In this document: one piece after another, positions 16,084-45,785 of the stretch
Position numbering within the stretch: the first letter of the stretch is position 1
How the letters are laid out: each line of letters begins with the position of its first letter
Source of the DNA: Porticoccaceae bacterium
GTDB lineage: Bacteria > Pseudomonadota > Gammaproteobacteria > Pseudomonadales > Porticoccaceae
Assembly (NCBI GenBank): GCA_029250825.1
Contig: JAQXEN010000061.1
Coordinates: 1-64,000, forward strand
Length of the DNA: 64,000 nucleotides
Direction: 5' to 3'
Translations under genes and position numbers: made by a program
Notes under the pieces: model-generated
What the model was told of the DNA's origin: nothing
Seen by the model: only the letters and a program-made list of their open reading frames with translations
Databases searched by the model: none

Positions 16084-16297
16084 GAGATCTCTCACATATG
16101 TTCGAGATGACAGAGTTTTGTGTGATGACATAGCTTTGTGTGATGACAGAGCTTTGTGTGATAACAGAGTTTTGTATCATGCTGATGCTATGCTCTTGCC
16201 ATGCCAGCGCTAACTTTTCGGTCATCCCGGCGCTACCTTTTTGTCATCCTACCGCTACCTTCCTGTCATCCCGACAGAGCGCAGCGACGAGGGATCT
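16084..16297. repeat. Composite element A: inverted GAGATC elements enclosing 18-bp and 22-bp tandem arrays
   Basis: Left element 16084-16112 runs from GAGATCTCTC to ATGACA. Four exact-period 18-bp units (ATGACAGAGTTTTGTGTG, 16107-16178) follow, then about 27 bases, then three roughly 22-bp units ending GTCATCCC (16206-16272). The right element is 16265-16297 (GTCATCCCGACAG to GAGGGATCT). The first 33 bases of the element at 31283 are identical to this right element. Array units share the ATGACA/GTCAT end of the element beside them. Confidence 0.85.
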
Positions 16298-16519
16298 ACT
16301 TGCAGGTTCACACCATTATCTCGAAAGAAGTATTGAATTGCCTTCAGCATCAATTAGGCTGCGCTTATAATTTGGTTTATTAGCGTAAAGCGTGAGGACC
16401 TGTTTGAGCGATAGCGAGTTCCCCAGCGTTGGTAATAAAGTGAATTATGCAGCCGATGCTGAGGGCAATTTAATACTTTAGCGCACGGAACTGTCAGCCA
16501 AGGAGCGGTATATGCAAGG
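16298..16519. other. Intergenic stretch between composite element A and the 15-bp array
   Basis: 222 bases without a recognisable gene, hairpin terminator or element. The promoter for pxpABC may lie here. Confidence 0.4.
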
Positions 16520-16609
16520 AGCTATCTAGCACAGAGCTGCCCAATACAAAGCTATCCAATACAAAGCTACCCAACAAAGAGCTATCTAACAAAGAGCTAT
16601 CCAACAACA
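16520..16609. repeat. 15-bp tandem array (AGCTATCCAACAAAG) in the pxpA leader
   Basis: Six 15-bp units without indels, each beginning AGCT(A/G)(T/C)C; the array stops 25 bases before the pxpA ATG and abuts its ribosome-binding site. Copy-number change would alter the leader length. Confidence 0.9.
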
Positions 16610-16634
16610 AACCAGCAGTATTTAGGAAACCAAC

Positions 16635-17369
16635 ATGGCACTACTACTAAATTGCGATCTCGGGGAAAGCTACGGCGCTTGGACCATGGGCCTAGATGAC
16701 CAAGTTATGCCTCATATAGATCAAGCCAATATCGCCTGTGGCTTCCACGCCGGCGATCCCGTGGTAATGAAAAAAACCCTGCTCTCCGCTAAACGTAACA
16801 ATGTCATCATTGGCGCCCATCCTAGCTACCCAGACCTTGCTGGGTTTGGCCGCCGCTCAATGAAGCTACCCGCCGTCGAAATCATTGCCATAGTGCAATA
16901 CCAAATCGCCGCCCTCGCAGGCATGGCACAAAACCTCGACGTCCCCGTAAGCTACGTTAAGCCCCATGGCGCTCTCTACAACGATATGATGATCAACGGC
17001 CATATCCGCAGCGCCATTATGGAAGCCATTGCCGAGTCCCCGCTATCCCTTGCCTTTATGCTGCAGGCCACACCGGAGGCCGAAACTCACCGAGAAGAAG
17101 CCAAAATGTTTGGCATTGAGCTGATCTTTGAAGCCTTTGCCGATCGCTGCTATGACGACAACGGCGCCCTGCTCTCCCGGGCCAAAGAAGGCGCAGTACA
17201 CAGCCGTGAAAAAATGCTCACACAGGTCCAGCAACTAAAAACCGAAGGTTGCGTAACCACCATTAGCGGCCACCGCCTGGAGCTACAGGCCGACTCCCTC
17301 TGTGTCCATGGCGACAACCCGGAAGGGGTCAAAGCCATCAAAGAAATTCGTCAGTTAATTAATTCATAA
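16635..17369 (+). CDS. pxpA: 5-oxoprolinase subunit PxpA (LamB/YcsF family)
   Basis: 244 residues. LNCDLGESYGAW, ANIACGFHAGDP and SYVKPHGALYND are diagnostic. With PxpB and PxpC it hydrolyses 5-oxoproline (pyroglutamate) to glutamate at the cost of ATP. AGGAA lies upstream of the ATG. The stop overlaps the pxpB start by one base (TAATG), showing tight coupling. Stereochemistry of the substrate for this family outside L-5-oxoproline is not established. Confidence 0.96.
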   Translation: MALLLNCDLGESYGAWTMGLDDQVMPHIDQANIACGFHAGDPVVMKKTLLSAKRNNVIIGAHPSYPDLAGFGRRSMKLPAVEIIAIVQYQIAALAGMAQNLDVPVSYVKPHGALYNDMMINGHIRSAIMEAIAESPLSLAFMLQATPEAETHREEAKMFGIELIFEAFADRCYDDNGALLSRAKEGAVHSREKMLTQVQQLKTEGCVTTISGHRLELQADSLCVHGDNPEGVKAIKEIRQLINS

Positions 17370-18061
17370 TGCAGCCACTAAAGACCATCTCCATCGCCGG
17401 AGAGAACTCTCTGATCGTCTACTTTGGCGATACGCCCAGCGATACCATTGCTTCAGAAGTCGCGGCTACCGCAGCGCAGCTGCGTGCCAACCTCGGCGAC
17501 CGGCTCATAGATCTGGTGCCCTCCTACGCATCCCTGCTAGTGATTTACGACCCCTTTAAGACCGACCACCATGCCATGCGCAGCGCCATTCGACAGGCAC
17601 TAGCGAACCCCACAGGCACAGACAACAGTCAGCCAAGCTCCCTGGTAACACTGCCGGTTTATTACAGCACCGAGTCCGGCCCCGACCTGCAGTCACTGGC
17701 CGACAATGCGAGCCTCTCGATTGAAGAAGTAATGGCAATCCATCAGCAGACGGAATACCGAGTCTATGCCATAGGCTTTGCTCCCGGCTTTGCCTATCTT
17801 GGCGAACTGGACCCACGGATCGCCGCACCGCGACTCGCCACTCCGCGACAAAAAGTCCCTCGAGGTGCAGTTGCTATTGCCGACCGCCAGACTGCCGTTT
17901 ATCCAGCACAGTCTCCTGGAGGCTGGAACCTGATAGGCCTATGTCCAGAGCGTATGTTCGACCCCAGTGTTGAACCAAGCATGCAGGTTCAGGTAGGCGA
18001 TCGAGTCAGATTTAAGGCTATCGACAGGCAGACCTTTTTGGATATGGGTGGCCTGTTATGA
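17369..18061 (+). CDS. pxpB: 5-oxoprolinase subunit PxpB (KipI family)
   Basis: 230 residues. Contains the carboxyltransferase CT_C_D domain hallmarks YAIGFAPGFAYLGELD, TPRQKVPRGAVAIAD and QSPGGWNLIG. Partner of PxpC in ATP-dependent 5-oxoproline opening; the B. subtilis orthologue KipI was first described as a kinase inhibitor. It overlaps pxpA by 1 base and pxpC by 4 (ATGA). Confidence 0.96.
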   Translation: MQPLKTISIAGENSLIVYFGDTPSDTIASEVAATAAQLRANLGDRLIDLVPSYASLLVIYDPFKTDHHAMRSAIRQALANPTGTDNSQPSSLVTLPVYYSTESGPDLQSLADNASLSIEEVMAIHQQTEYRVYAIGFAPGFAYLGELDPRIAAPRLATPRQKVPRGAVAIADRQTAVYPAQSPGGWNLIGLCPERMFDPSVEPSMQVQVGDRVRFKAIDRQTFLDMGGLL

Positions 18062-19035
18062 CGATAAATAGCGGCTTTAAAGTGATTAAACCAGGCATTT
18101 TTAGTTTAATTGAAGACGCCGGACGCTTTGGTCAACATGGTATCGGCCTAACCACGGGGGGCCCACTGGACAGCAATGCCTTTCGCTGGGCCAATCGTCT
18201 CTGTGGCGACCAACAGCGCGCCGCAGCTATCGAAGTCACCGTCGGCGGCTTGGTTTTAGAGTCCCAAGTCAATACAACTATCGCCGTCACTGGCGCCACT
18301 CTCCCTCTGAGTATCAATAGCCAACCCCGAGAACTGTGGCAGAGCCACCCAGTAAAAATAGGTGATCGCATCGAATTGGGATTTGCCTCATCGGGCAGTC
18401 GCGGCTATTTGGCTGTGGCGGGAGGCTTTCATATCGCGCCAATTTTTAATAGCGTTGCCACTGTGCCTCGAGAGGCACTGGGTGGAGTGCACCGGGATGG
18501 CACAGCACTGCAGACTGGAGATCTTTTACCCTGTTCAGAAAGCTCTACACAAAACCAAGCCGCGGCACAGCTCCGCGTACCCGCAGATCAACGCCCGGAC
18601 TACAGCACTAATAGCGCTCTACTGCGAGTAATACTGGGTTATCAGCAGCAGGCCTTTAGTGCGTTACATAAACAGCTATTTTTCAGCTCAGAATACGCTG
18701 TCACCAAGAGCAGCGATCGCATGGGTTTTCGCCTTAAAGGTGCGCCCATCAAGCCATCCTTAGACGGTATTCTCTCCGAGGGTATCTGTCTCGGCGCGAT
18801 TCAGGTACCAGCAGATGGTCAACCCATAGTGCTGCTCAATGATCGCCAGACCATCGGCGGGTACCCCAAGCTCGGGTCTGTGCTCACTCTGGATATGGGC
18901 AAGCTGGCCCAGCTATTGCCCGGGGGAACTCTGCGCTTTGAAGCGATCAGCATAGAGCAGGCCCACAACCTATTACTGCTGGATCAGCAGCGCTTTGCCA
19001 ATACGGTCTTAGAGGTGATTGAGCTCGATGAATAA
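18058..19035 (+). CDS. pxpC: 5-oxoprolinase subunit PxpC (KipA, biotin-dependent carboxyltransferase-like)
   Basis: 325 residues. The CT_A_B domain is shown by SLIEDAGRFGQHGIGLT, GGPLDSNAFRWANRL and the C-terminal LNDRQTIGGYPKLGSV. Forms the PxpBC carboxyltransferase-like pair. The last codons overlap the DUF4392 gene by 8 bases (ATGAATAA), so all four genes appear to be translated as one unit. Confidence 0.95.
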   Translation: MTINSGFKVIKPGIFSLIEDAGRFGQHGIGLTTGGPLDSNAFRWANRLCGDQQRAAAIEVTVGGLVLESQVNTTIAVTGATLPLSINSQPRELWQSHPVKIGDRIELGFASSGSRGYLAVAGGFHIAPIFNSVATVPREALGGVHRDGTALQTGDLLPCSESSTQNQAAAQLRVPADQRPDYSTNSALLRVILGYQQQAFSALHKQLFFSSEYAVTKSSDRMGFRLKGAPIKPSLDGILSEGICLGAIQVPADGQPIVLLNDRQTIGGYPKLGSVLTLDMGKLAQLLPGGTLRFEAISIEQAHNLLLLDQQRFANTVLEVIELDE

Positions 19036-19876
19036 CCTTGTCATCAGCACCACAATCGAAGACCTTTTGGTGGCACGCAATCCCCGGGGTATGCAGGCAC
19101 TTCAGAAGGCTCTGGTGCCCGGTTATTATTTGCGCGGCGCCCAGATGCTGCAAAGTGCCATTGGCAAAGTATTAATTGGCACCGGCTTCCCGGTAGCCGG
19201 CACCTACGAGACCGATGGTCCGGTTGGCGCCATTGCCCTCTACCAAGCATTAGAAACTCTCGGCGCAAAACCGATACTGGTCTGTGGTGCTCCACTGGCC
19301 GATGCCATCGCCGCGGATTACCGAGTACACAAAATAAGCGTGGGCAAGCCCGCAGTGAGCAAAGTTGAGGCACAAAAAGCCCTGCAGCAATATAAGCCAT
19401 CACTGGTGATATCCATTGAACGACCGGGCATGGCCGCAGATGGCAACTATTACAATATGCGTGGCGAAGATATCAGTCTCGCCTGCGCCAGCTTTGATTA
19501 TTTTTTAAGTTTGGCCGACTGCCCAACCATTGCCATTGGCGATGGCGGCAATGAAATTGGTATGGGCAATGTCGCCAGCGCAGTTGAGCAGCTATCCATC
19601 TCCCCCTCCATCATTCCGTCCGCCATCTGCTGCGATGAACTGCTGATCGCCGATGTATCCAACTGGGCTGCCCACGGGCTGATCGCCATGCTGTCAGTTT
19701 TAAGGGGCCAAGATATGCTTGTGGACTGGGATAATTTCGCCATATTGCAATACCTCTCCGACCGCGGCAGTGTCGATGGTGTGACCCGAGAAAATCAGCT
19801 AACAGAAGATGGTTTGAGCGCAGATATTAGTGAAGAATTAATTCAAAACCTGAGAACATTAGGTGGATTTTATTAA
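19028..19876 (+). CDS. D-glutamate cyclase-like protein, DUF4392 (GLUCM C-terminal) half
   Basis: 282 residues from ATG 19028; an in-frame TTG at 19019 is less likely because AGAGG would be only three bases away. Motifs resemble the C-terminal domain of vertebrate D-glutamate cyclase: GTGFPVAGTYETDGPVGA, SIERPGMAADGNYYNMRG, IAIGDGGNEIGMGNV. The enzyme interconverts D-glutamate and 5-oxo-D-proline. Its overlap with pxpC and the ycsI-type gene upstream of pxpA support a joint pathway. Catalytic residues cannot be assigned by eye. Confidence 0.85.
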   Translation: MNNLVISTTIEDLLVARNPRGMQALQKALVPGYYLRGAQMLQSAIGKVLIGTGFPVAGTYETDGPVGAIALYQALETLGAKPILVCGAPLADAIAADYRVHKISVGKPAVSKVEAQKALQQYKPSLVISIERPGMAADGNYYNMRGEDISLACASFDYFLSLADCPTIAIGDGGNEIGMGNVASAVEQLSISPSIIPSAICCDELLIADVSNWAAHGLIAMLSVLRGQDMLVDWDNFAILQYLSDRGSVDGVTRENQLTEDGLSADISEELIQNLRTLGGFY

Positions 19877-19984
19877 TAGCAGTATATTTTCTGGTTATAA
19901 GCCTGATCAGCCTTAAAAACCACCAAATAAGCCACAAATAAAATCTCTATACCAATGAATTTACTTTGCGCACACTGCGCCTCG

Positions 19985-20095
19985 CTGATACCATTTTTTG
20001 CATATTAACGGCCCAGTAAAATTTACGCTTAATCAACCCAGTGCTGCGTTTATACTGGGTAGCTTAAGCTGGGTGGCCCAGTTCATTAAGCGCTA
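19985..20095. promoter_or_regulatory. Cluster of CCCAGT/ACTGGG half-sites upstream of dat
   Basis: Five CCCAGT-like or inverse motifs occur within about 85 bases (near 20012, 20037, 20055, 20070 and 20077). One perfect pair, ACCCAGT (20036-20042) and ACTGGGT (20054-20060), could be a hairpin or an operator. The 271-base gap between the DUF4392 gene and dat must contain any dat promoter. No T-run follows, so a terminator is unlikely. Confidence 0.4.
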
Positions 20096-20147
20096 ATAAG
20101 AGCCATCCAAAGCTAACAATAGACAACCAGATCCAAAAGGTACCAAT

Positions 20148-21005
20148 ATGAGCATCGCGTTTCTAGATGGCAACTACATGCCCATCGAGCAGGCCAAAAT
20201 ATCCCCTCTGGATCGGGGGTTTTTATTCGGCGACGGCATCTATGAAGTCGTGCCCTCCTTCGCCGGAAAAATGGTTGGCTTTGCACCCCATATCGCGCGC
20301 ATGAAAAGTGGCCTCGAAGCCATCGGCATCCAGCTGAAGTGGTCCACAGATGACTGGGCAGAGCTGTGCAATCGCTTGATCAGCGAAAACAATGCCGGCA
20401 ATCTGGGCATCTACCTACACGTCAGTCGCGGCACCGACAACAAACGCTTCCATGCCTTCCCAGAAAATATTGCACCCACAGTTTTCGCCTATACCTTTGA
20501 GATCCCTCCGGCACCCATAGCGGACAAGAGCAGTGTCAAAGCCAGAAAGGCCTCCACGACCCGCGATCTGCGCTGGGAACGCTGCCAGATTAAATCCACT
20601 GCACTGCTCGGCAATGTTCTGCACTTTCAACAGGGCTACGAACAAGGCAGCGATGAAACCCTGTTATTTAACGCCGAAAATCAGCTCACCGAAGCCAGTG
20701 CCTGCAATGTCTTTATTGTTAAGGACGGCACCGTGATAACGCCATTACTGGATCATCAAAAACTGCCGGGCATCACCCGCCAGATCGTTATCGATGTGTT
20801 GCGTAAAGACGGCAAGATTGCCGTGCAAGAGCGCATTGTCACGATGGAAGAAGTGGCCGGCGCCGATGAAGTGTGGATTACCAGCTCCTCGAAGGAAATA
20901 GCACCGATCACAGAGATCGATGGTAAACCGGTTGGCGATGGCAGCATTGGGGATATCTGGCTAGCTGCTCAGACTCTCTATTCCGCATCGAAATTTGATT
21001 ACTAG
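20148..21005 (+). CDS. dat: D-amino-acid transaminase (fold-type IV PLP)
   Basis: 285 residues. The PLP lysine is in CQIKSTALLGNVLHFQ; SPLDRGFLFGDGIYEVVP is the N-terminal signature of the class IV aminotransferases and LTEASACNVFIVKDG the PLP phosphate region. The closest class is D-alanine:2-oxoglutarate transaminase rather than branched-chain IlvE, judged by length and RDLRWERC. Interconverts D-Ala and D-Glu. It is followed after 8 bases by alanine racemase, which strengthens the D-amino-acid assignment. Confidence 0.88.
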   Translation: MSIAFLDGNYMPIEQAKISPLDRGFLFGDGIYEVVPSFAGKMVGFAPHIARMKSGLEAIGIQLKWSTDDWAELCNRLISENNAGNLGIYLHVSRGTDNKRFHAFPENIAPTVFAYTFEIPPAPIADKSSVKARKASTTRDLRWERCQIKSTALLGNVLHFQQGYEQGSDETLLFNAENQLTEASACNVFIVKDGTVITPLLDHQKLPGITRQIVIDVLRKDGKIAVQERIVTMEEVAGADEVWITSSSKEIAPITEIDGKPVGDGSIGDIWLAAQTLYSASKFDY

Positions 21006-21013
21006 GTAGTTTC

Positions 21014-22090
21014 ATGTCCAGACCCACAAGAGCGGTTATCGATCTTCAAGCATTGCGCCACAACTACCAGTTGGCGCAATCTTTGGCACCGAAATCAAAG
21101 ACCGTTCCGATGGTCAAGGCCAATGCCTATGGTCATGGTGCGGCCCGGGTCGCTGAAGCGCTCAGTGATCTGGCACCCGCCTTTGGTGTCGCCTGTATAG
21201 AAGAAGCACTGGAACTACGGGATGCAGGCATCAAACAGCCAATATTGCTCCTCGAAGGTGGCTTTGACGCCGCCGAACTGCAATTAGCAGCCACCAAAGG
21301 GTTCTGGGTGATGGTTGAAAACCATCGACAAAAAGACGCAGTTATCAATGCCGATCTGGCTCTGCCACTCACTGTCTGGCTCGGAGTCGACACCGGTATG
21401 CATCGCCTCGGGTTCCAGCCAGACGAAATTGCCGAGGTCTATAAAACGCTCAATAGCAGTCGCAATATTAGCCAGCCTATCGTTTTCACCTCGCACTTTG
21501 CCTGTGCCGATGATTTGAACAGCGATGCCACAACCAAGCAGATCGATAGCTTTAAAGCCTGTGCACCGGTCACCGCACTCCAAAGTCTAGCTAACTCAGC
21601 TGCAATTTTGGCCTGGCCCAAAGCTCAACGTGAATGGCAACGACCCGGCTATATGCTCTATGGCAACTCGCCATTTTCAGTGCCCCAAGAAAATGCCGAT
21701 CAACTCAAGCCGGTGATGTCGTTTGAATCCGCGGTGATTTCTCTGCGCAATATCAGTGCCGGTGAATCAGTGGGTTACACCGCCAATTGGACTGCCCAGG
21801 GAGACTCCACCATAGCCACCATTACCGTTGGTTACGGCGATGGTTATCCCCGCCATGCGCCGAATGGTACGCCAGTGCTAATTAATGGTCAGCGCTGCCC
21901 GCTAGTGGGTCGTGTCTCTATGGATATGATTACCGTTGATGTAACGGCGCTCAGTCAGGTTGCGATTGGTGATAAAGCAGTGCTCTGGGGGCCTGAGCTA
22001 GCGGTGAATGAAGTCGCGGAGCACTGTGGCACCATAGGCTATGAACTGCTCACCCGAATGCCGGCACGCGTGCCCCGAGTTTATAGCTAA
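21014..22090 (+). CDS. alr: Alanine racemase
   Basis: 358 residues. PLP lysine in VPMVKANAYGHGAARV, catalytic Tyr region VGYGDGYPRHAP, and GRVSMDMITVDVT, all family hallmarks; fold-type III barrel plus C-terminal beta domain. Makes D-Ala for peptidoglycan or, run backward, feeds D-Ala into L-Ala. AGGTAG precedes the ATG. It probably forms an operon with dat. Confidence 0.96.
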   Translation: MSRPTRAVIDLQALRHNYQLAQSLAPKSKTVPMVKANAYGHGAARVAEALSDLAPAFGVACIEEALELRDAGIKQPILLLEGGFDAAELQLAATKGFWVMVENHRQKDAVINADLALPLTVWLGVDTGMHRLGFQPDEIAEVYKTLNSSRNISQPIVFTSHFACADDLNSDATTKQIDSFKACAPVTALQSLANSAAILAWPKAQREWQRPGYMLYGNSPFSVPQENADQLKPVMSFESAVISLRNISAGESVGYTANWTAQGDSTIATITVGYGDGYPRHAPNGTPVLINGQRCPLVGRVSMDMITVDVTALSQVAIGDKAVLWGPELAVNEVAEHCGTIGYELLTRMPARVPRVYS

Positions 22091-22199
22091 ACGCCGCATT
22101 CGAGTATTAACGCCCAATCGCCGTTTTCTACTTCGCATACTCACGAGCTAGAGGGATTATGGGGATAGGGCTTTGAGAAATAGGCTGGGATAGAGCTGC

Positions 22200-23257: not shown

Positions 23258-23335
23258 AGAAGTTCCTTTCTAGTTTGGCAGGTATTTTGCCCTGTTTGGC
23301 AGGGTCTGGAAAGTGGTACGTTCAGTGACAAGTTT
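23258..23335. other. ubiX upstream region
   Basis: Short stretch holding the ubiX ribosome-binding site and presumably its promoter; it contains TTTGGCAGG-type short repeats (near 23272 and 23295). Repeat element B begins immediately to the right. Confidence 0.4.
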
Positions 23336-23667
23336 GAGATCCTTCGACTGTGCTCAGGATGACAGAGTCCGAGGTGTGACTCTGAATTGTAAACCTGTCA
23401 CTCCAAACGCCCAACCTGTCACTGCAAACCCCGAACTCGTTACTGCAAACCGCGAGTCTGTCATCTCGAACCCCCAGCCTGTCACATCGAAACCCAAGCC
23501 TGTCACATCGAAACACAAGCCTGTCGTCTCAAACCCCCAGTCTGTTATCTTGAACGCCTAGCCTGTCATCTTGAACGCCTAGTCTGTCATCTTGAGCTGC
23601 CAGTCTGTCATCTCGAACGCATGTGAGAGATCTCAATATCTCTCATCACTGCGTTCTGTCGGGATAA
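23336..23667. repeat. Composite element B: 21-bp tandem array (11 copies) between GAGATC elements
   Basis: Left element 23336-23365 (GAGATCCTTCGACTG to GATGACAG). Then, after about 26 bases, eleven consecutive 21-bp units at 23392-23622 with no indel, consensus AGCCTGTCATCTCGAAC plus CCCC. The last unit is itself the start of a right element, 23605-23634 (CTGTCATCTCGAAC to GAGATCTC). A decayed third element follows at 23636-23667 (ATATCTCTCATCACTGCG to GGGATAAT). The unit sequence equals the GTCATCTCGAAC end of that right element. Confidence 0.9.
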
Positions 23668-23839
23668 TAGGCTATTGGTTAACGCTGGACTCCAACCGAA
23701 GGCTGACTTAAAGAGCAGCAATCACTCTCATCGCACTACCTGCCCCGATGAACGCTTTAGCTTTGTACTGCCTGACCTCTTGGCGCATTCTGCGCGTATC
23801 AGTTCAGGATCTAGAAAAATAAAAACCAGAGAAGAATTT

Positions 23840-25702
23840 ATGCTATCCAACTCACAGCTATTGTCCTTAATTGGCATACTCCGCAATGCCAGAAAGTTCG
23901 GCCTGATTGTCCTATGCAGTGCCTTGATGGCCTGTGGTGGTGGCGGTTCATCTACAAGCCCAGATCCGCTTACTGAAGAGCCCGTAGCCGACGAATCTGT
24001 GGTTGAAGAGCCTGTAAGTGAAGAGCCTGTAAGTGAAGAGCCCGTAAATGAAGAGCCCGTAAATGAAGAGCCCGTAATTGAACAACCAGCAGTTGAAGAG
24101 CCCGTAATTGAACAACCAGCAGTTGAAGAGCCCGTAATTGAACAACCAGCAGTTGAAGAGCCTGAAGAGGAACCAGTAACAGAGCAGCCTGATCCCCTAT
24201 CAGCCCAATCTGATTCAGCTCGCGCAGGCAAGATACCTGGCGTCAATATTTGGCAGCTGCCCAACTCCCCAGACGGTGACCGTCCTGATCAATGCTGGCT
24301 AGCGGTGGGCTCTGATGACAGCGGTGAGATCTATATCTCCGGCCATGACCATCAGACCAATTCCATGCTCTACCGTATGTATCAATCCGATAATACCCTT
24401 CGCTGGATTGGCGATGCGCGCACCGCATCCGAAGCGGCCGACAATTGGGAAAATGGCGAAACCGCAGAGAAGTTTCATACCCGCCCGATTTATCACCAAG
24501 GCCAAGTCTATGTGGCCACGCTGGACAAGTCCGGAATGGACAATGGTTTCCGCAGCACCAGAGGCTTTCACTGGTACAGCTATAAAATCAGCCAAAATAG
24601 ATTCTATGATTTGAGCGCCTCAGAGCCCAATGGTGTCGGTGCAGAGACACTGCAGTTAGCCACTATTCAAATAGATCCGCTGAACAACCTGCTCTATGGC
24701 ATGTCGATTCCAGAAAACAAACTGGTGCGTTATGACATTGCCACAGGCACCACAACGGTACTTGGCAATCCGCCCCAGTGGACCGGCTATTTCTATACTA
24801 ACCGTTTTATGTGGGTGGACTCACGGGGCCGGGTCTATATCACCGGCGGATCGTCGAGAGGTCAGTGGAACAAAGGAGAGTCTTCCGCAGTTTTTGATCA
24901 TGTCTGGTATTACGACCCAGCCACAGGCTTTGGAGAGCTGCCGGAGTTTGAGCTTCAGGGCCCCAACTCAATGGAAGTTGGTCAGTGGGATCGCGAACAC
25001 AAAAATCTCTATACCAGCGATGATCAGGGCAATATTTATCGTTTTAACGATGCCGCTGCGAGCTGGACATTTCTCGGCCGGCCGAATTTTTCCAGCTCAT
25101 TAAAGACCTGGATTTTCCAGCTCTCTGCCGATGAGGAAAAAATTTATATTGGCCTCAGTGATGGTCCACAGCCTAACGCGATCTATGAATACGATATAGC
25201 CACCGGCAGTTCCTTTGAATTGCTTAAAATAAACGATCTCGACGATGCCGCGGCAGCCGAAGCCTTTATAACCGGTTATGACTCCTGGGACAGCAAAGGC
25301 AATTTTTATATCGCCAGCTTTAGCATGTATGACAACGACAATGTCTATATGCTCGGTATTAATCCAGTGGAAATTAAGCTGCAGAAAGGTCTGATTACTA
25401 ATCGTATGCAAGTGTCAGCAGTACAGGAGAATGATGGCAATATCCGTGTTTCACGGAGCGGTTCAAACGCTGCCCCTCTCGATGTTTTATTTGAAGTTCG
25501 AGGCTCTGATAGTGAAGGGAATTGGGTAACTACAGGGTATGGAGAACTGACTATTGCTGCACAGCAGAGCGATTTCAATATTGATCCTTTAAGCCTAAGC
25601 TTGCCAGCTGGAGACTCTGCAATTAGCTTTGAGTTTGTGGTTGTGGCGGACGGTAATGATTATCTGATCAGTGATGACACTACGGTGGCGTTTCTTCAGT
25701 AG
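23840..25702 (+). CDS. Secreted lipoprotein with Glu/Pro repeat stalk and beta-propeller-like domain
   Basis: 620 residues from ATG 23840 (AGAGAAG upstream); a longer frame from a TTG at 23675 would run through repeat B and is rejected. The signal peptide ends in lipobox LMACG. Residues about 52-115 are an acidic stalk of EEPV(S/N) and EEPVIEQPAV repeats. The bulk (about 130-540) has repeated SDDSGEIYISG, DSRGRVYITGG, DDQGNIYRF and WDSKGNFYIASF strands as in a propeller. The C-terminal region (LDVLFEVRGSDSEG, DDTTVAFLQ) resembles a Calx-beta-like sandwich. Substrate unknown; probably surface-exposed. It is bracketed by repeat arrays on both sides. Confidence 0.78.
   Translation: MLSNSQLLSLIGILRNARKFGLIVLCSALMACGGGGSSTSPDPLTEEPVADESVVEEPVSEEPVSEEPVNEEPVNEEPVIEQPAVEEPVIEQPAVEEPVIEQPAVEEPEEEPVTEQPDPLSAQSDSARAGKIPGVNIWQLPNSPDGDRPDQCWLAVGSDDSGEIYISGHDHQTNSMLYRMYQSDNTLRWIGDARTASEAADNWENGETAEKFHTRPIYHQGQVYVATLDKSGMDNGFRSTRGFHWYSYKISQNRFYDLSASEPNGVGAETLQLATIQIDPLNNLLYGMSIPENKLVRYDIATGTTTVLGNPPQWTGYFYTNRFMWVDSRGRVYITGGSSRGQWNKGESSAVFDHVWYYDPATGFGELPEFELQGPNSMEVGQWDREHKNLYTSDDQGNIYRFNDAAASWTFLGRPNFSSSLKTWIFQLSADEEKIYIGLSDGPQPNAIYEYDIATGSSFELLKINDLDDAAAAEAFITGYDSWDSKGNFYIASFSMYDNDNVYMLGINPVEIKLQKGLITNRMQVSAVQENDGNIRVSRSGSNAAPLDVLFEVRGSDSEGNWVTTGYGELTIAAQQSDFNIDPLSLSLPAGDSAISFEFVVVADGNDYLISDDTTVAFLQ
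24003..24165 (+). repeat. In-frame repeats of the lipoprotein stalk
   Basis: Units of about 15 bp (GAAGAGCCCGTAAAT-like) pass into three 30-bp units encoding EEPVIEQPAV. Neighbouring copies are nearly identical at the DNA level, so length variation between strains is likely. Confidence 0.85.
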
Positions 25703-25716
25703 TTTGGGGAATTGTT

Positions 25717-25915
25717 GAGATCCCTCGTCGCTACGCTCAGTCGGGATGACATAAAAAGCGCTCGGCCAGAATGACATGAAAAGCGCTCGGCCGGGATGAC
25801 ATGAAAAGCGCTCGGCCGGGGTGACATAAAAAGTGCTCTGCCGGGATGACGTAAAAGCACCCTGTCAGGATGACAATAAACGACCCTGTCATCCTGAGCC
25901 CAGCCCAAGGATCTC
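25717..25915. repeat. Composite element C: 25-bp tandem array between inverted GAGATC elements
   Basis: Left element 25717-25751 (GAGATCCCTCGTCGCTACG to GATGACA). Six units with period 25, 25, 25, 25, 24 and 23 lie at 25734-25880, consensus CGCTCGGCCGGGATGACAT plus GAAAAG. The right element in opposite orientation is 25886-25915 (CTGTCATCCTGAG to GGATCTC). Units repeat the GGGATGACA end of the left element. Starts 14 bases after the lipoprotein stop. Confidence 0.9.
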
Positions 25916-25966
25916 ATGCCAGCAGGCTAAAAGCCCAAAAGCAAAAAACTACGCTCGATCAAAAAT

Positions 25967-26614: not shown

Positions 26615-26674
26615 TTCTAGAGTTCCTTTTCAGTTGAAAAATTTATCGACTCGCCGAGAGTCCTCGTTAAACAA

Positions 26675-30183: not shown

Positions 30184-30185
30184 AG

Positions 30186-30215
30186 TTGTCATTCTGATAG
30201 AAGTCGAAGGATCTC
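30186..30215. repeat. Single dispersed element F (TTGTCATTCTGA to GGATCTC)
   Basis: One half-element in the GTCAT to GATCTC orientation directly after the acnB stop, before its terminator. Same family as elements A-E and G, type with TCGAAGGATCTC. Confidence 0.8.
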
Positions 30216-31223: not shown

Positions 31224-31282
31224 TGGTCCAACATAGGACTCAATCGGAGGCAAGTGGTTAAAGTGACGGTGTATAAAAAACC

Positions 31283-31316
31283 GTCATCCCGACAGAGCGC
31301 AGCGACGAGGGATCTC
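31283..31316. repeat. Single dispersed element G (GTCATCCCGACAG to GAGGGATCTC)
   Basis: Its first 33 bases are identical to the right element of composite A at 16265-16297. It lies between the AbiC-like gene and recQ, which converge here. Confidence 0.9.
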
Positions 31317-34513: not shown

Positions 34514-34563
34514 TCCTCGCTGGCGTAAAGACTAAATAATCACAAAGAGTCCAAGTGACAAAT

Positions 34564-34594: not shown

Positions 34595-34618
34595 GTGTGA
34601 CCCTGTATCAGCAGGCTG

Positions 34619-35596: not shown

Positions 35597-35620
35597 AATA
35601 TTGCCCTGCTTAATTTATTA

Positions 35621-36535: not shown

Positions 36536-36544
36536 GCTATTTCC

Positions 36545-37759: not shown

Positions 37760-37878
37760 TGTCTTTATCCTTATTCTGATTTTTTTGTGTTTTTTATTTT
37801 TTAAACATTCTAATACAGCCAGAACGTAAAACGGGGCATCATTACCGATAACCCCCGAATAGTTGTTATTTGCTTAAC

Positions 37879-39018: not shown

Positions 39019-39075
39019 GATTCTGTACCTTAAAATTCTGTTAGTCTCTTAAAAAAAGAGTGCTCTCAAAGCCTA

Positions 39076-40251: not shown

Positions 40252-40331
40252 ATTAGTCTCCTGCTGTATCACAGAGTTAGAAAGGGTTTAGAGGGAACCG
40301 CTACACTAGCAATCCTGACGTATTTTTATGA

Positions 40332-40363
40332 AATTGAACTTACAGTATGTTATTGTAACTTTC
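40332..40363. promoter_or_regulatory. Imperfect palindrome between divergent acyl-CoA dehydrogenase and MDR genes
   Basis: TTACA (40340-40344) and TGTAA (40354-40358) with a 9-base centre; flanks extend the symmetry as AA-TTACA-TA. The size fits a TetR or FadR-like operator. The central AGTATGTTATT (40344-40354) recurs in reverse complement at 45823-45833 upstream of the double TetR gene. Confidence 0.45.
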
Positions 40364-40520
40364 AAGTATTGTTAGCTAATTGCCTGTATTTTTAGTCCCG
40401 CTGGTCGTTATTTGAGCTAGCAATCAAGCGCCTCAGCAACCATTATGTTGTCCGCTTAAAAAGCACAACAATAAGCCACCCGAAGCGCAAGTGGCACCGC
40501 CAAATTATCAGGGGAAATTC

Positions 40521-41558
40521 ATGAGTCAAGACAACAACAGCCAAGTCAATAACAGCATAGTGCTAGCCAGCCGCCCAACAGGACAGCCGACAGCAGAAAA
40601 TTTCCGAATGGAGACCAGCTCTGTAGCACCAATCACTGAAGGCCAGATACTGATTAAGACCCTCTATCTATCCCTCGACCCCTATATGCGCGGCCGCATG
40701 AGTGCAGCAAAATCCTATGCGGATCCCGTAGCCATAGGTGAAGTTATGACCGCTGAAACGGCCGGCGTTGTGGTGGAGTCAAAGTCGGCGCTCTATGCCG
40801 TCGGCGATCATGTCTGCTCTCGCTCGGGCTGGCAGGAATATTTTGTCAGCGACGAAAAAGATCCCATGACCTACAAGGTGGATGCCTCCAAAGTACCACT
40901 CTCAACCTATTTGGGTGTATGTGGAATGCCCGGTCGAACCGCCTACTTTGGCCTCAAAACTGAAGCCAAGCCCCAGGCCGGTGAGACGTTGGTGGTGTCT
41001 GCTGCCTCAGGTGCTGTGGGTTCCGTGGTTGGTCAGATCGGCAAAAAGTTAGGCCTCCATGTGGTCGGTGTAGCCGGTGGCCCCGATAAATGTGCCTATG
41101 TAAAAGATGAGCTGGGTTTTGATCAAGTGGTAGACTATAAAGCCGGCAACTTGGATGCAGATCTAGCCGCCGCCTGTCCCAACGGTATAGATATCTATTT
41201 TGAATCCGTAGGAGGCGCCTTGACCGAAGCCGTAGCCAAGCAGTTAAATCCCGGTGCGCGAGTGCCTATCTGCGGCTATATCTCCAACTATAATTCCACC
41301 GACATCAGTAAAGAGCGCACGCCATTTCATATTTTCGGTGAACTGGAAACACCTCCGACGCATAAATTCTTCTTGGTTTTTGATTATGTCGATGATTATG
41401 CCGCGGCAAACCATGCACTGACTGACTGGGTTGCCAGTGGTGAACTAAAGTATCAAGAGACCCTGGTTGAGGGCCTCGAAAAGGCACCGGAGTATTTCTC
41501 CTGGCTGTTTAGCGGTAAAAACTTCGGCAAGTTAGTGGTAAAAATTGCCGATCAATAA
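40521..41558 (+). CDS. NADP-dependent MDR oxidoreductase (CurA / leukotriene B4 dehydrogenase family)
   Basis: 345 residues from ATG 40521, with AGGGG at 40510-40514 upstream; the frame opens 30 bases earlier without such a site. LSLDPYMRGRMS, YLGVCGMPGRTAYFGL, VSAASGAVGSVVGQIGKKLG and GYISNYN are hallmark motifs of the prostaglandin/curcumin reductase group. Reduces the double bond of enals or enones with NADPH. tesB follows 39 bases downstream on the same strand. Confidence 0.92.
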   Translation: MSQDNNSQVNNSIVLASRPTGQPTAENFRMETSSVAPITEGQILIKTLYLSLDPYMRGRMSAAKSYADPVAIGEVMTAETAGVVVESKSALYAVGDHVCSRSGWQEYFVSDEKDPMTYKVDASKVPLSTYLGVCGMPGRTAYFGLKTEAKPQAGETLVVSAASGAVGSVVGQIGKKLGLHVVGVAGGPDKCAYVKDELGFDQVVDYKAGNLDADLAAACPNGIDIYFESVGGALTEAVAKQLNPGARVPICGYISNYNSTDISKERTPFHIFGELETPPTHKFFLVFDYVDDYAAANHALTDWVASGELKYQETLVEGLEKAPEYFSWLFSGKNFGKLVVKIADQ

Positions 41559-41597
41559 AGCCTACTATTTATCTTAATTTAAAGGAATAAACACTGC

Positions 41598-42479
41598 ATG
41601 AGCGAAGCACTGCAACAACTACTGGATATTCTCGAGCTGGAAAAAATTGACGAGACCATATATCGAGGTGTGACACCGGAAACTACCAATAAGCGAGTGT
41701 TTGGTGGCCAGGTCTTCGCTCAGGCTATGCGTGCCGCTCAGGACACAGTGCCCGAGGATCGCATGGTGCATTCACAACATGGCTATTTTTTGCGTCCCGG
41801 CGACCCCAATGTGCCGATTCTCTATCAAGTGGATGGGATTCGCGACGGCGGTTCTTTTACCACTCGCCGAGTGGTCGCCTCTCAGCGTGGCAAGGCGATT
41901 TTTAGCACCGAACTGTCATTTCAGGTAGTTGAGTCCGGTCTCTCTCACCAGTCGGATATGCCCGACTGCGTCGGACCTGAGGGTCTCGAAGATGACAATA
42001 TTCGCTGGGCCAAATTAAGGGAGGCCTTGGCTGACAAAGCAAAAACCGGTGCCATAGCCCATCGACCGGCACTGCGCCCAATTGAAATGCGCACCGTGAA
42101 TCCAGTGGATCTTGCCAATCCCACCGCGCATCCTGCAGAACAATTTGTCTGGGTTAAGGCGGCGGGATCATTGCCAGAGACAGCTCAGAATCCCGGACTC
42201 CAGCGGGCTATTTTGGCCTATGCCTCAGACTTCAGTTTAATGGGCACTTCACTGTTACCCCACGCCATTAACTTTATGAACAGCAAGCTACAGGCGGCCT
42301 CACTGGACCATTGCATTTGGTTTCATGATGAGTTTAACGTTGATGAGTGGATGCTCTACTGTATGGACAGTCCCCGCAGCAGTCATAGCCGCGGACTGAG
42401 CCGCGGTTCGTTTTACTCCAGAGATGGACGGCTGGTTGCCAGTACTATTCAAGAGGGCTTGATCCGTTTGCGCCACTGA
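41598..42479 (+). CDS. tesB: Acyl-CoA thioesterase II (TesB)
   Basis: 293 residues, double hotdog. NKRVFGGQVFAQAMRAAQ, HSQHGYFLRPGDPNVPILY, FTTRRVVASQRGKAIF and the C-terminal LDHCIWFHDEFNVDEWMLY with SRGLSRGSFYSRDGRLVAS are diagnostic. Hydrolyses medium and long acyl-CoA to free acid. Convergent with the small thioesterase gene, 8 bases apart. Confidence 0.95.
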   Translation: MSEALQQLLDILELEKIDETIYRGVTPETTNKRVFGGQVFAQAMRAAQDTVPEDRMVHSQHGYFLRPGDPNVPILYQVDGIRDGGSFTTRRVVASQRGKAIFSTELSFQVVESGLSHQSDMPDCVGPEGLEDDNIRWAKLREALADKAKTGAIAHRPALRPIEMRTVNPVDLANPTAHPAEQFVWVKAAGSLPETAQNPGLQRAILAYASDFSLMGTSLLPHAINFMNSKLQAASLDHCIWFHDEFNVDEWMLYCMDSPRSSHSRGLSRGSFYSRDGRLVASTIQEGLIRLRH

Positions 42480-42487
42480 CAGCTGTT

Positions 42488-42922
42488 TTAGGAGACTGTA
42501 ACTTTCTCCAGAGCAGACCGAATTTGAGCCGGAATCGCCACTGACTTATCGGTGGCGCGATTAACAAAGACATGGGTAAAGGTGCCGACTGCAGAAGCCG
42601 TTTCAGCGCCCTGCTTAAATATCGCAATACCGTATTCAACAGAGCTATTACCCAGCTTATTGACCCGCAAGCCGGCATCGATTTTATCCGGATAGGCGAT
42701 CGGCGATTTGTACTGACAGTTGGAGGCCACCACAAAACCAATTATCTCGGCGCTGTGAATATCCAAGCCGCCCACTTCGATTAAAAACTTATTCGCCACG
42801 GAATCAAAGTAACTGTAATAGACCACATTGTTTACATGGCCATAGATATCATTATCCATCCAGCGGGTGGTGATATCGGCAAAGTAGGGGTAACTGGTGC
42901 GTTGGTCGCTATTATCGCTCAT
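42488..42922 (-). CDS. 4HBT-family acyl-CoA thioesterase
   Basis: 144 residues from ATG 42922; a GTG directly upstream is also in frame. TRWMDNDIYGHVNNVVYYSY carries the hotdog catalytic Asp, and AIFKQGAETASAVGTFTHVF completes the fold. Substrate unknown. It starts 3 bases after the iron-ADH stop, so the two are one transcription unit. Confidence 0.87.
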   Translation of the reverse strand: MSDNSDQRTSYPYFADITTRWMDNDIYGHVNNVVYYSYFDSVANKFLIEVGGLDIHSAEIIGFVVASNCQYKSPIAYPDKIDAGLRVNKLGNSSVEYGIAIFKQGAETASAVGTFTHVFVNRATDKSVAIPAQIRSALEKVTVS

Positions 42923-42925
42923 CAC

Positions 42926-44083
42926 TTAAAACGCCTGTTGGTAGATCGAAAGCGCATCATCAAGACTCAGCTCTCGTGGGTTATTGATTAACAGCCGCTG
43001 CTGCAACATCGCCTCTTGCGCTAGCTTGGGCAGATCCGATTGATCAATATTCATCTGACTTAAGCGAGTCTGCAAACCTAAATCTGCGGCCAAGTCTAAA
43101 AAGTGCTGTGCCAGCAAATCACTGACTTCGAGGGGATCACTGGGCAAGCCTCTGCCGGGCAAAATAATCGGCGCCAACTCGGCATAGAGCTCAGAGGCCG
43201 CCACTGCATTAAAGCGCAGCACATGGGGAAGCACCAGTGAGTTACTCAAGCCGTGGGGAATATGGTAATTGCCCCCCAGTGGATAGGCTAAGGCATGCAC
43301 CGCAGCTACCGGGGCATTGGCAAAAGCCTGACCCGCGAGCATGGCACCCAACAGCATGGCGCTCCGGGCTTCAAGGTTGCCGCCCTGCTTCACTGCGGTG
43401 GAAATATTGCCCGCCATCAAGCGCAGGGCTTCCCGGGCCAACATATCCGACAGAGGATTTTTTAAACGCACACTGGTGTAGGCCTCGATAGCATGCACCA
43501 TGGCGTCAATGCCGGTGGCTGCTGTGACGGCTGGAGGTAAGCCTAGAGTCAGTGTGGCATCGAGAATGATTTTGTCCGCCAGAAGAGTGCGACTGACAAC
43601 CCCAGCTTTGGTGGTTTCACCGGTGGTGATAATCGACACCATAGTGGCCTCTGAGCCAGTGCCGGCTGTGGTTGGAACCTGAATCAATGGCAGCCGCCCG
43701 CCGCTGATTTGATCGACACCATAAATATCCGCCAACTGCTGCTCACCTTTAATCAGCACTGCCAGCAGTTTGGCCACGTCCATAGAACTGCCGCCACCAA
43801 AACCGATAACGCCATCACAGCCAAAGCTCTGAGCCGATGCCACCGCATCCATAACGACCGACTCTGGGGGATCAGCGATAACATCGGAATAGATACTGAA
43901 CTCAATATTATTGGCTTTAAGATTGGCAACTGCCGCATCCAGAAGACCGAATTTGATAATGCCAGGATCGGTGACGACTAGGGCGCGCTCAATGCCCATA
44001 GCCATGGCGATATCGCCAAGTTGGCTGGAGGTGTCGGGGCCAACAAGGGCATCGGACACTGCGCTATGGAGGAAATTATTCAT
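42926..44083 (-). CDS. Iron-containing (type III) alcohol dehydrogenase
   Basis: 385 residues. NAD loop GVIGFGGGSSMDVAKL, VPTTAGTGSEATM, and metal-ligand region ATGIDAMVHAIEAY, APVAAVHALAYPLGGNYHIPHG with the expected Asp and His residues. Oxidises an alcohol or reduces an aldehyde; short-chain and hydroxyacid substrates are both known in the family. The upstream region carries three AAGTGCT repeats and element D. Confidence 0.92.
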   Translation of the reverse strand: MNNFLHSAVSDALVGPDTSSQLGDIAMAMGIERALVVTDPGIIKFGLLDAAVANLKANNIEFSIYSDVIADPPESVVMDAVASAQSFGCDGVIGFGGGSSMDVAKLLAVLIKGEQQLADIYGVDQISGGRLPLIQVPTTAGTGSEATMVSIITTGETTKAGVVSRTLLADKIILDATLTLGLPPAVTAATGIDAMVHAIEAYTSVRLKNPLSDMLAREALRLMAGNISTAVKQGGNLEARSAMLLGAMLAGQAFANAPVAAVHALAYPLGGNYHIPHGLSNSLVLPHVLRFNAVAASELYAELAPIILPGRGLPSDPLEVSDLLAQHFLDLAADLGLQTRLSQMNIDQSDLPKLAQEAMLQQRLLINNPRELSLDDALSIYQQAF

Positions 44084-44198
44084 AATATTGTTGCCGTTTT
44101 TATTGTTGTTTTATTTTGCTTTGGCAGGGAGTTGCTCTGCTATTTCAAAGTATGATTTGTTGTCATTTTCACTGGGTAGAGCATGGAGCTCTGTAAAA

Positions 44199-44229
44199 AG
44201 TGCTTTAAAAAGTGCTCTAACAAGTGCTG
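44199..44229. repeat. Three AGTGCT repeats at 12-bp spacing upstream of the iron-ADH gene
   Basis: AGTGCT begins at 44199, 44211 and 44223 within AAAAGTGCTTTA-like units. They lie about 115-145 bases before the iron-ADH ATG and may be an operator array or another small satellite. Confidence 0.5.
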
Positions 44230-44245
44230 TGCTCAGTGGTGTACT

Positions 44246-44345
44246 GAGATCTCTCACATTCGTTCGAGATGACAGGCTGTGTTTGTTATTCCGACATAGC
44301 CCTCTCTAACTTGTCATCCCGACTGAGCGAAGCGACGAGGGATCT
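44246..44345. repeat. Composite element D: inverted pair of dispersed elements
   Basis: Left element 44246-44275 (GAGATCTCTCACATTCG to GATGACAG), 37 bases including one spare TTATTCCGACATAG-like unit, then right element 44313-44345 (GTCATCCCGACTGAGCG to GAGGGATCT). This is the shortest form of the composites, with practically no array. It sits between the iron-ADH promoter side and the 3' end of the TetR gene. Confidence 0.9.
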
Positions 44346-44362
44346 TCTACTCTCTGCTCAGC

Positions 44363-45643
44363 TCAACCCACCCCATCCCGCAACAGTCCGTTAACAAACA
44401 AATGAAAATAAGCCGCCGACAGCGCTTTGCTGTCCATATCAGTCACCCTATTAACCAGATCCGGACTCGCTTCCACTGCACCCGAGAGAATATATTGGGC
44501 AACACTGGAGTCGGTATCCCGCAGGGTCTTATCTTCAAGACCCTGACGAATATAGGCTCCCAATTGCTCACTGTTGGCGCTGGTAGCTTTTAGAATTTGC
44601 TTGCGGTGCACTTGGTCGAGAGAAGGCAGCGCCCGATAACGAATCAAGGGCCCATCTTCAGAAAACTGCACATTAAATAAATAGCGCAGCGCCAGCTCAA
44701 GCTTTTTTAAACCACTGCCCTGAGCACTGTCAGCCTCGGCCAATAACAGGCGCTCAACATCTAGGGTGCGGTTAAAACACTGATAGAGCAGCTCTTCTTT
44801 GTTTTTAATATGGTAGTAAAAGGCACCTTTGGTCACTTCCAGAGAGTTTGCTATCTCATCTAGAGATGTCCCTTTATACCCCTTCTGATTAAAGAAGATT
44901 GAACCCACTCGATAAAACGCCTCGCGCTTCATGCGGTTCTGCACATCGCGATCAAAGCTGTCCAAATCCAGATGACTTAATTCGGGAAAATCAATCTCAG
45001 TAAACTGATGGCGTTCGGCAGCCAAACCATGGAGCAACACATCCAATACCGCATCAATCACTGGCTGCGGATTGGCTGCATGGGTGCGGTTTAGCCACAC
45101 GGGGAACCATTGAATAATCGAAAAAATTGCCGAACTAACAATAGCTGAATCCTGTTTTTCAATTAGGCCCTCAGTCATACCCTGATCGACCATATCGCAA
45201 CAGAGCTGAAAAATTTCATCCCAGCGCTGAATGATATCCTCGGCGTGATCTGCATCCAGAGAGGTGACCTCGGCAAGCATGGCAAAGTGCGGTGCCTTGC
45301 CATTAATAGTCTCTATATATTGATTGAAGTGGCCGCGGACCATTTCAACAATTTTTTCCACACCACTGCCATCCATACTGTTAGCTTGACGGGCCTTTTC
45401 CAGCCACATATCGCAGCTCGAGACATAGCATTGATAGACCAGGTCTTCTTTGGTTTTTACATAGTAATAGACGCAGGTTTTGGTCAGTTTGAGGCTACCG
45501 GCAATATCCACCAGAGTCGTTGCACGGGAACCCTGCCAGTTAAATAGCTGTGCCGCTTCAGACAGAATCGACTGAAATTTAAGCTGGTGCTGGCGACCTT
45601 TGGAAAAAGGCGAGGCTATTTTTTTGTCCACAAGTGAATTCAT
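44363..45643 (-). CDS. Tandem TetR-family transcriptional regulator (two complete TetR units)
   Basis: 426 residues, twice the usual size. First unit: HTH about 42-64 (TTLVDIAGSLKLTKTCVYYY) with ligand domain to about 215. Second unit: HTH about 259-282 (TSLDEIANSLEVTKGAFYYH) and its own C-terminal domain to the end. Both recognition helices keep the TetR TK-x-(C/A)-(V/F)-YYY/H pattern but differ in sequence. The frame is continuous with no internal start evident. It probably controls the neighbouring fatty-acid or alcohol genes; ligand unknown. Confidence 0.9.
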   Translation of the reverse strand: MNSLVDKKIASPFSKGRQHQLKFQSILSEAAQLFNWQGSRATTLVDIAGSLKLTKTCVYYYVKTKEDLVYQCYVSSCDMWLEKARQANSMDGSGVEKIVEMVRGHFNQYIETINGKAPHFAMLAEVTSLDADHAEDIIQRWDEIFQLCCDMVDQGMTEGLIEKQDSAIVSSAIFSIIQWFPVWLNRTHAANPQPVIDAVLDVLLHGLAAERHQFTEIDFPELSHLDLDSFDRDVQNRMKREAFYRVGSIFFNQKGYKGTSLDEIANSLEVTKGAFYYHIKNKEELLYQCFNRTLDVERLLLAEADSAQGSGLKKLELALRYLFNVQFSEDGPLIRYRALPSLDQVHRKQILKATSANSEQLGAYIRQGLEDKTLRDTDSSVAQYILSGAVEASPDLVNRVTDMDSKALSAAYFHLFVNGLLRDGVG

Positions 45644-45710
45644 CAGATTCCAAGTAATCTTTCTTCTGCGCTATCAATAAAGTCAGTTCTTTTATTAAAA
45701 CCAGTGCAAA

Positions 45711-45785
45711 GAGATCTCTTATATTGGGTCGAGGCAACAGGGTCTTTTTATATTATCCACAGCGACCAGTGCGACAGAGGATCTC
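45711..45785. repeat. Decayed composite element E
   Basis: Left part 45711-45740 (GAGATCTCTTATATTGGG to CAACAG) matches element D at most positions. The right part, about 45751-45785, keeps ATCC, GCGAC and AGGATCTC only. Located in the promoter region of the TetR gene. Confidence 0.6.

Follow-up and report, generated by a model that had tools for sequence, protein, structure and literature searches.

Tandem arrays of locus-specific units lie at the tag end of dispersed palindromic elements in a Porticoccaceae genome

We analyzed a 64,000-nucleotide stretch of a Porticoccaceae bacterium genome (contig JAQXEN010000061.1, positions 1 to 64,000; hereafter, the window), in which dispersed imperfect palindromes, tagged TGTC at one end and ending in GATCT at the other, carry tandem arrays almost only on the tag side. 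At each locus, the repeated segment starts mostly 7–13 bases beyond the tag and runs to near the hairpin apex; arrays agree in position, direction and breakpoint, and the loci are nearly independent of one another. Orthologous sites differ in the number and sequence of the units, and the units nearest to an element are the most element-like. An earlier inspection of the bare sequence (the original prediction) had described elements whose GTCAT/ATGAC end seeds arrays with a period that varies by locus. Our analysis confirms this observation and supports its interpretation, based on polarity across the genome, locus-specific flank parts and differences between sister species. On balance, we favor repeated tandem duplication in place, on the tag side of the hairpin and probably by replication slippage, which would make the arrays by-products and the element a generator of minisatellites.

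A dispersed family of tagged palindromes

Elements were searched with the strict pattern GTCAT-N-Y-N-GA-N(5-18)-R-GATCT, which has ten intact matches in the window and none in 100 first-order Markov (dinucleotide) simulations of it. Across the assembly (2.33 Mb in 93 contigs, 91% complete), this search yielded 85 copies, 42 and 43 on the two strands, compared with one for the reversed control pattern. Two of the loci named at that time, 23636 and 45711, are degenerate and fall outside the strict pattern. Elements are 27 or 33 nt long and occur as type A (33 nt, GTCATCCCGACAGAGCGCAGCGACGAGGGATCT), type B (27 nt, GTCATCTCGAACGCATGTGAGAGATCT) and type C (27 nt, for example GTCATCCTGAGCGAAGTCGAAGGATCT). 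By eye, type A often alternates with type B on the opposite strand, and the two then either point their tags at each other from the two sides of a spacer or meet at their GATCT ends, which abut or have AGATCT in common. The copies in the window all lie between likely genes, and no Rfam family reached its gathering score there.

Where three inverted pairs had been proposed, the window instead contains four intact tag-inward pairs (at 16, 23, 25 and 44 kb) and a decayed pair at 45.7 kb; six of the eight elements in the intact pairs are type A or B. The array periods of 18, 22, 21 and 25 bp were reproduced by Tandem Repeats Finder. These features are listed below, with array scores referring to a direct repeat across the element boundary, for which at least 12 was required.

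16084..16112, minus strand: type B element (strict match 16085-16111), tag (TGTCAT) end rightward
16106..16175, minus strand: 18-bp array, 3.9 copies, at the tag end of the 16084 type B element; unit is element end plus AGAGYTTTGTGT flank (score 21, period 18)
16196..16272, plus strand: 22-bp array, 3.5 copies, at the tag end of the 16264 type A element (score 14, period 22)
16264..16298, plus strand: type A element (strict match 16265-16297), with the same 33-mer as at 31283
23336..23364, minus strand: type C element (strict match 23337-23363), tag end rightward, own-side array undetected (score 5)
23392..23606, plus strand: 21-bp array running into the 23606 type B element (score 18, period 21)
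23606..23634, plus strand: type B element (strict match 23607-23633)
23636..23669, minus strand: degenerate type A copy, GATCT ends together with the 23606 type B element (by eye, outside the strict pattern)
25717..25751, minus strand: type A element (strict match 25718-25750), tag end rightward
25734..25880, minus strand: 25-bp array at the tag end of the 25717 type A element (score 20, period 25)
25887..25915, plus strand: type C element (strict match 25888-25914), closing the inverted pair with 25717
30187..30215, plus strand: single type C element (strict match 30188-30214), 4 bp past the aconitase B stop codon, no array (score 5)
31282..31316, plus strand: single type A element (strict match 31283-31315), no array (score 5)
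44246..44274, minus strand: type B element (strict match 44247-44273), tag end rightward
44275..44312: pair spacer with at most one decayed unit per side (scores 7 and 7, under threshold)
44312..44346, plus strand: type A element (strict match 44313-44345)
45711..45785: decayed inverted pair (by eye, outside the strict pattern)

The shared 33-base core of the elements at 16265 and 31283 had been read as a sign of recent spread. The identity stands, but the same 33-mer occurs in 11 of the 85 copies in this genome and also in two other species; because it is the family consensus, one identical 33-mer is no proof of recent spread.

Among 34 relatives of the same genus, seven contained 37–79 strict matches and 27 contained 0–29, while 21 genomes from other families of the order contained 0–4, near the level of the reversed control. 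High-copy genomes of the genus number eight: the present one and those that we label G001, G018, G021, G023, G030, G032 and G034. A further genome (G056) probably represents the marine gammaproteobacterium HTCC2207, of the same genus as the window, which we take to be a member of the SAR92 clade.

Longer direct repeats that hold whole element units were also seen in this genome, at C84:5-233, C7:7669-7927, C75:17391-17935 and C40:15529-16246, with unit lengths of 101, 137, 256 and about 342 bp.

Arrays extend from the tag end

Arrays crossed the tag end at 31 of 83 places in this genome and the GATCT end at 0 of 85 (Fisher p 1e-11), compared with 35 of 2,000 random sites in the same stretches. 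The corresponding counts were 23/78 and 0/78 in G023 (random, 45/2,000; Fisher p 4e-8; 78 of 79 places examined) and 30/75 and 5/75 in G018 (random, 110/2,000; Fisher p 2e-6; 75 of 77 places examined), where the five GATCT-end cases look by eye like whole-element tandems or neighboring arrays. The same polarity was found in a Bacteroidales genome (G071; 47/88 at the tag end versus 3/88 at the other, p 2e-14), which was picked because its loci, found via L146, had shown the tag-side pattern, and in which 88 of 147 elements were examined.

A scan of species genomes for two GTCATYYYGA stretches ahead of RRGATCT returned at least 118 such stretches, which give no measure of frequency per phylum. 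Among the scan matches listed, the period peaked at 21 (25 of 133) and all 8/8 flank bases were repeated in 34 of 133, three of which (L153) are whole-element tandems; going by record titles, these 34 loci presumably span about seven phyla. Because the same polar arrays occur in unrelated bacteria, arrays at one end of TGTC-tagged hairpins point to a shared way in which hairpins create new repeats.

A different, perfect hairpin (GTCATACCAGCGAAGGCTGGTATC) lies upstream of the matched gene at locus L224 of G034 and has a 19-bp array at its GTCAT end. Perfect hairpins of this kind numbered 21 in the loci examined, two with tag-side repeats and none with repeats on the other side.

The repeat unit ends near the hairpin apex

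When the element part had to be at least 6 and the flank part at least 5 (the stricter criterion), we found 117 arrays: 20/83 in this genome, 11/76 in G023, 24/74 in G018 and 62/190 at scanned loci, the last enriched by the scan itself. The count for this genome thus depends on the criterion (31/83 at a score of at least 12). Elements failing the stricter criterion serve as array-free in the counts of flank composition below and include some decayed arrays.

Across the 117 arrays, the unit consisted of about ten flank bases plus the element's 5′ arm, with its inner end near the hairpin apex and a median period of 22. Unit length was mainly 17–30, and the flank part measured 7–13 nt in 87 of 117. 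The median element part was 12 of 26 nt (n = 41), 11 of 27 (n = 44) and 16 of 33 (n = 20), with rarer lengths giving 12 of 28 (n = 4), 14 of 30 (n = 2) and 14 of 32 (n = 3) and single cases 7 of 25, 19 of 31 and 13 of 34. In the 98 of 117 arrays passing a filter on part length, the element part increased with element length (regression slope, 0.40 ± 0.09; p 2.5e-5), and the inner end lay a median of 1.5 nt ahead of the element midpoint; the unit therefore stops near the apex.

From the tag inward, the hairpin has a 5-bp stem that shows compensatory changes, then a G.A/A.G double mismatch that hardly varies and a short apex, with GATCT at its far end. With pairs numbered from both element ends and the outer stem pairs fixed by the search pattern, pairs 6, 7 and 10 were complementary in 0.98, 0.98 and 0.90 of the 27-mers (62 of 183 distinct elements), compared with shuffled maxima of 0.84, 0.85 and 0.77, whereas pair 11 was unsupported (0.48 versus a mean of 0.46). 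At pairs 8–9, where the pattern fixes GA on the 5′ side, the free partners produced G.A and A.G mismatches in 61 of 62 27-mers; Watson–Crick pairs replace the double mismatch in about a quarter of 39 26-mers. Beyond the mismatch, one pair was supported in 26- and 27-mers, and 33-mers showed no pairing there in the symmetrical register.

Flank parts and orthologous sites

Flank parts from distant loci of one genome were hardly more alike than those from different genomes: at least 9 of 11 bases were identical in 24 of 8,935 pairs within a genome versus 44 of 18,549 between genomes, and no pair of either kind matched at all 11. We therefore rejected the idea that arrays spread together with the element. 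Where an array had three or more extra units, the units became less like the element with distance in 36 of 57 cases, showed no trend in 14 and became more like it in 7 (p 9e-6), and the distal units of the 21-bp array at 23392..23606 look more diverged. Flank parts within one array had a mean identity of 0.86 to the element-adjacent one (190 inner units), which differs from the identical repeats and different spacers of arrays of clustered regularly interspaced short palindromic repeats (CRISPR).

Orthologous intergenic regions of sister species, a comparison that the original prediction had called for, showed the same element pair with a different number of array units or lacking the 18-bp array. 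Genes neighboring the 25.7 kb locus were matched in 28 relatives, of which 10 were inspected and 5 keep both neighbors. HTCC2207 has the same A/C pair there, but its 25-bp units are fewer and have a different flank sequence. The pair is decayed in both G057 and G023, each with about one unit; in G069 a different element stands on the left, with one unit, and G002 shows a tag-outward arrangement. At 16.1 kb, where seven relatives were inspected, G057 carries the same B/A pair with the 18-bp array absent and at most one decayed unit on the A side. Its adjacent flanks resemble the flank parts of the window's own arrays, including the AGAGYTTTGTGT flank of the 18-bp array. Other relatives have other elements with about five 21-bp units (G069), a C pair with one unit (HTCC2207), a single element (G002) or no element (G023); only the downstream gene is shared with G018 and G034, and G018 has a five-fold 28-bp array there.

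Mechanism of array formation

We infer that the arrays form in place during replication, by slippage or template switching of the nascent strand at the hairpin. The nascent strand would copy through the flank and the 5′ arm, stop at the apex of a hairpin in the template, slip back to a short microhomology one flank-plus-arm length away and copy the segment again. Later events could use the first duplication as homology, and the array would then grow and turn over from the element outward. Arrays would on this account be by-products of the hairpin and possibly neutral. Pooled over two genomes, arrays were more frequent where the tag strand is the leading-strand template (32/70) than where it is the lagging-strand template (21/83; Fisher p 0.011), and microhomology of at least 3 nt was present in three of four clean two-copy arrays.

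Several results weigh against slippage. The replication test placed the origin by dnaA and treated neighboring elements as independent; its effect was not significant in either genome by itself (p 0.10 and 0.08), and the array-bearing elements alone did not depart from an even split (21 versus 32, p 0.17). The microhomology count comes from the only 4 clean cases among 13 two-copy arrays. At a threshold of at least 10 of 11 identical bases, pairs within a genome shared flank parts somewhat more often (9 of 8,935) than pairs between genomes did (8 of 18,549). The flank beyond the outermost unit had a mean identity of 0.53 to the repeated flank, compared with 0.86 for inner units and 0.31 for unrelated arrays, a difference that one simple duplication does not predict and that turnover of the array may explain. 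On meeting a hairpin, a polymerase should halt at the foot, not at the apex. Folding of single elements with DNA parameters was no better than that of shuffled sequence (z 1.13, 0.12, 0.44 and -0.05), which speaks against a strong single-element fold, and the stem therefore rests on covariation. Finally, general slippage should also act on the GTAG-tagged repetitive extragenic palindromic (REP) sequences of Escherichia coli, yet in 250 kb of strain K-12 none of 23 had an array on either side.

This last result would be explained by the specificity of a dedicated strand-nicking enzyme, perhaps an HUH-type transposase, which is the main rival to slippage, though we consider it unlikely. Such an enzyme would cut near the tag, at or outside a preceding CT, and at the apex, and abortive transposition or fill-in of staggered cuts would add one flank-plus-arm unit each time. 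One-end polarity and similar geometry in distant genomes fit this proposal. The base before the GTC tag, which the search pattern leaves free, is T in 91% of 181 array-free elements of the genus and in 88 of 88 Bacteroidales elements (CT in 76). Elements also end in CT, within the GATCT that the pattern fixes; cleavage at CT beside REPs by the TnpA-REP proteins of E. coli and Stenotrophomonas maltophilia is described in PMC8266576. The ten bases before the tag are poor in G in the genus even without a detected array (0.109 versus 0.23–0.28 further out), but in the Bacteroidales genome this shortage is slight (0.142 versus 0.18–0.19 further out) and matched by the other side (0.139). Fill-in also predicts no microhomology. 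The REP-associated tyrosine transposase (RAYT) gene that the original prediction had proposed to look for was not found: a search for Y1_Tnp, with other transposase families not searched, gave no match in this 91% complete genome, and we rejected RAYT mobilization here. Across the genus, Y1_Tnp matched in 8 of 50 genomes, comprising only G018 and G021 of the eight high-copy genomes and six low-copy or uncounted ones. CGTC-tagged REPs are likewise reported without a dedicated transposase (PMC3733652).

We regard as improbable that the arrays are functional, as repeated protein-binding sites or RNA motifs kept by selection. In favor of a role, similar 5′ arm sequences are found in many phyla, and the window elements lie between likely genes. 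Against it, unit lengths of mainly 17 to 30 have no common helical phase, and helical phasing was rejected given such variable periods; orthologous intergenic regions have an array, a different array or no element, and divergence with distance suits decay over maintenance.

It is still less probable that a nuclease of the SbcCD (Mre11–Rad50) type opens the hairpin 5′ of its loop, with the end then duplicated through faulty repair. Cleavage of hairpins by SbcCD on the 5′ side of the loop is documented (PMC6265447), and the units end 1.5 nt before the element midpoint. However, SbcD (TIGR00619) exceeded its cut-off in 0 of 50 genus genomes, which disfavors hairpin cutting by SbcCD; this genome had no match whatever, and weak matches in 18 others scored 19.7–26.9 bits (cut-off, 77.65). 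The search may have overlooked a diverged SbcD, because control genomes had matches in 13 of 14 but exceeded the cut-off in only 8. In a genus without an above-cut-off SbcD, inverted repeats might persist more readily.

Preferential insertion of elements into or beside pre-existing arrays could account for the association of elements with longer-period arrays (10 of 35 intergenic arrays within 2,949 of 66,549 intergenic bases, in a sample described below) but is scarcely credible: the arm of the element itself forms part of the units, the pair is present in G057 where the 18-bp array is missing, flank parts are for the most part specific to their locus, polarity is strong, and a site with an array but no element was not seen among the orthologues of the two loci compared.

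Comparison with known repeats

The closest published class is that of CGTC/TGTC-tagged REPs (Di Nocera et al. 2013, PMC3733652), compared here by their described features. According to that source, these are short extragenic palindromes with a TGTC or CGTC tag at one end and a stem starting with AT, which occur in several phyla, frequently as inverted heterodimers, with no dedicated transposase known. All of these features are common to our elements. Unlike them, our elements have a stem interrupted by the G.A double mismatch and a GATCT end in place of a mostly CCA tail, and tag-inward dimers, described in that source as rare in CGTC families, occur four times in the window. Its passages on tandem repeats do not describe tag-side arrays.

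Judged by features that define the REP superfamily, the elements agree in size, copy number and tag and differ in stem and tail. They are palindromes of 27 or 33 nt in 85 copies (20–40 bp, high copy and between genes in the superfamily), with a tag from the set CGTC, TGTC or CCTC at one end, its GTC being part of the search pattern. In place of an 8–9 bp stem with a 4–5 nt loop, they have a 5-bp stem followed by a mismatch, and in place of an unpaired, mostly CCA tail they have GATCT, itself set by the search pattern and followed by C in 83% of array-free elements. GTAG-tagged REPs, together with the bacterial interspersed mosaic elements (BIMEs) and REP doublets (REPINs) that occur with RAYTs, are likewise palindromes with a tag, scattered among intergenic regions and paired in alternating orientation. 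Our elements nevertheless fall outside the REPIN/RAYT system, with a TGTC and not a GTAG tag and no Y1_Tnp match in their own genome, and the GTAG REPs of E. coli lack their tag-side arrays (0/23).

The arrays also resemble the bacterial minisatellites used for multiple-locus variable-number tandem-repeat analysis, which consist of units of some tens of base pairs and vary between relatives. They have tandem units within the 10–60 bp range of minisatellites and a copy number that varies between relatives but, unlike typing minisatellites, start at the end of a dispersed element, hold half of it and run in one direction. BOX elements of Streptococcus pneumoniae have inverted ends and a variable number of internal repeats, with boxB the same at every locus, whereas here the unit differs by locus and derives from the element end. 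We found no description of tag-side, element-derived arrays in the open-licence literature searched, mostly at the level of titles, and no title listed for stretches of the element sequence concerned this repeat.

Other repeats and genes in the sampled sequence

We sampled 464 kb of this genome (400 kb of two contigs plus the window). Of its 35 intergenic arrays, 10 were no more than 60 bp from an element core, and the element end was part of 8 of them. The remaining 25 of 35 had no element core within 60 bp (18 of the 25 with periods of 9–16 bp), so arrays as such are not always element-derived. With the window excluded, 4 of 27 intergenic arrays were element-associated, all with periods of 20–26 bp.

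A second class of intergenic arrays, mostly with a 9–16 bp period and some with an AGAGCT or GCTCT core, lacks the element end. Members are located at 15993-16061, 16515-16607, 44194-44228 and 45856-45904 in the window and at loci L247-L265 in the sample. Intergenic window arrays without the element end lie at 15993, 16515, 40333, 44194 and 45856, and those at 15993 and 44194 are still within 60 bp of an element core.

An imperfect palindrome of ~170 bp (core TTGAGCGATAGCGAGTT) occupies 16326-16500 and folds, with RNA parameters, at -70.9 kcal/mol; by eye, G069, G057 and G023 retain it at the same position. This genome has similar palindromes at C8:195.5 kb and within the 256-bp (C75) and 342-bp (C40) whole-element repeats. 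A 426-aa reading frame at 44363-45643 (minus strand), in which TetR_N and TetR_C_24 are each present twice, looks like a double TetR regulator formed by fusion. Tandem repeats of 15/30 bp at 24002-24162 fall within another reading frame (23675-25702), for which the only match, Extensin-like, was weak and did not reach the cut-off.

Implications

More speculatively, and we would not expect it to be so, one dedicated directional activity present in many phyla, neither RAYT nor SbcCD, might write flank-plus-arm units at the tag end of TGTC hairpins. If true, each array would be an ordered record of past events at its hairpin.

Studying how a minisatellite arises from unique sequence is difficult, since the ancestral state has usually been lost. 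The present elements offer well over a hundred births, apparently separate, for comparison: their start point and direction are fixed, their inner breakpoint is known, and array-free orthologues survive in places. The origin of tandem repeats in bacteria thereby becomes directly testable, and the arrays give a reason for the placement of some variable repeats and a hint at what processes palindromic repeats that have been reported without a transposase.

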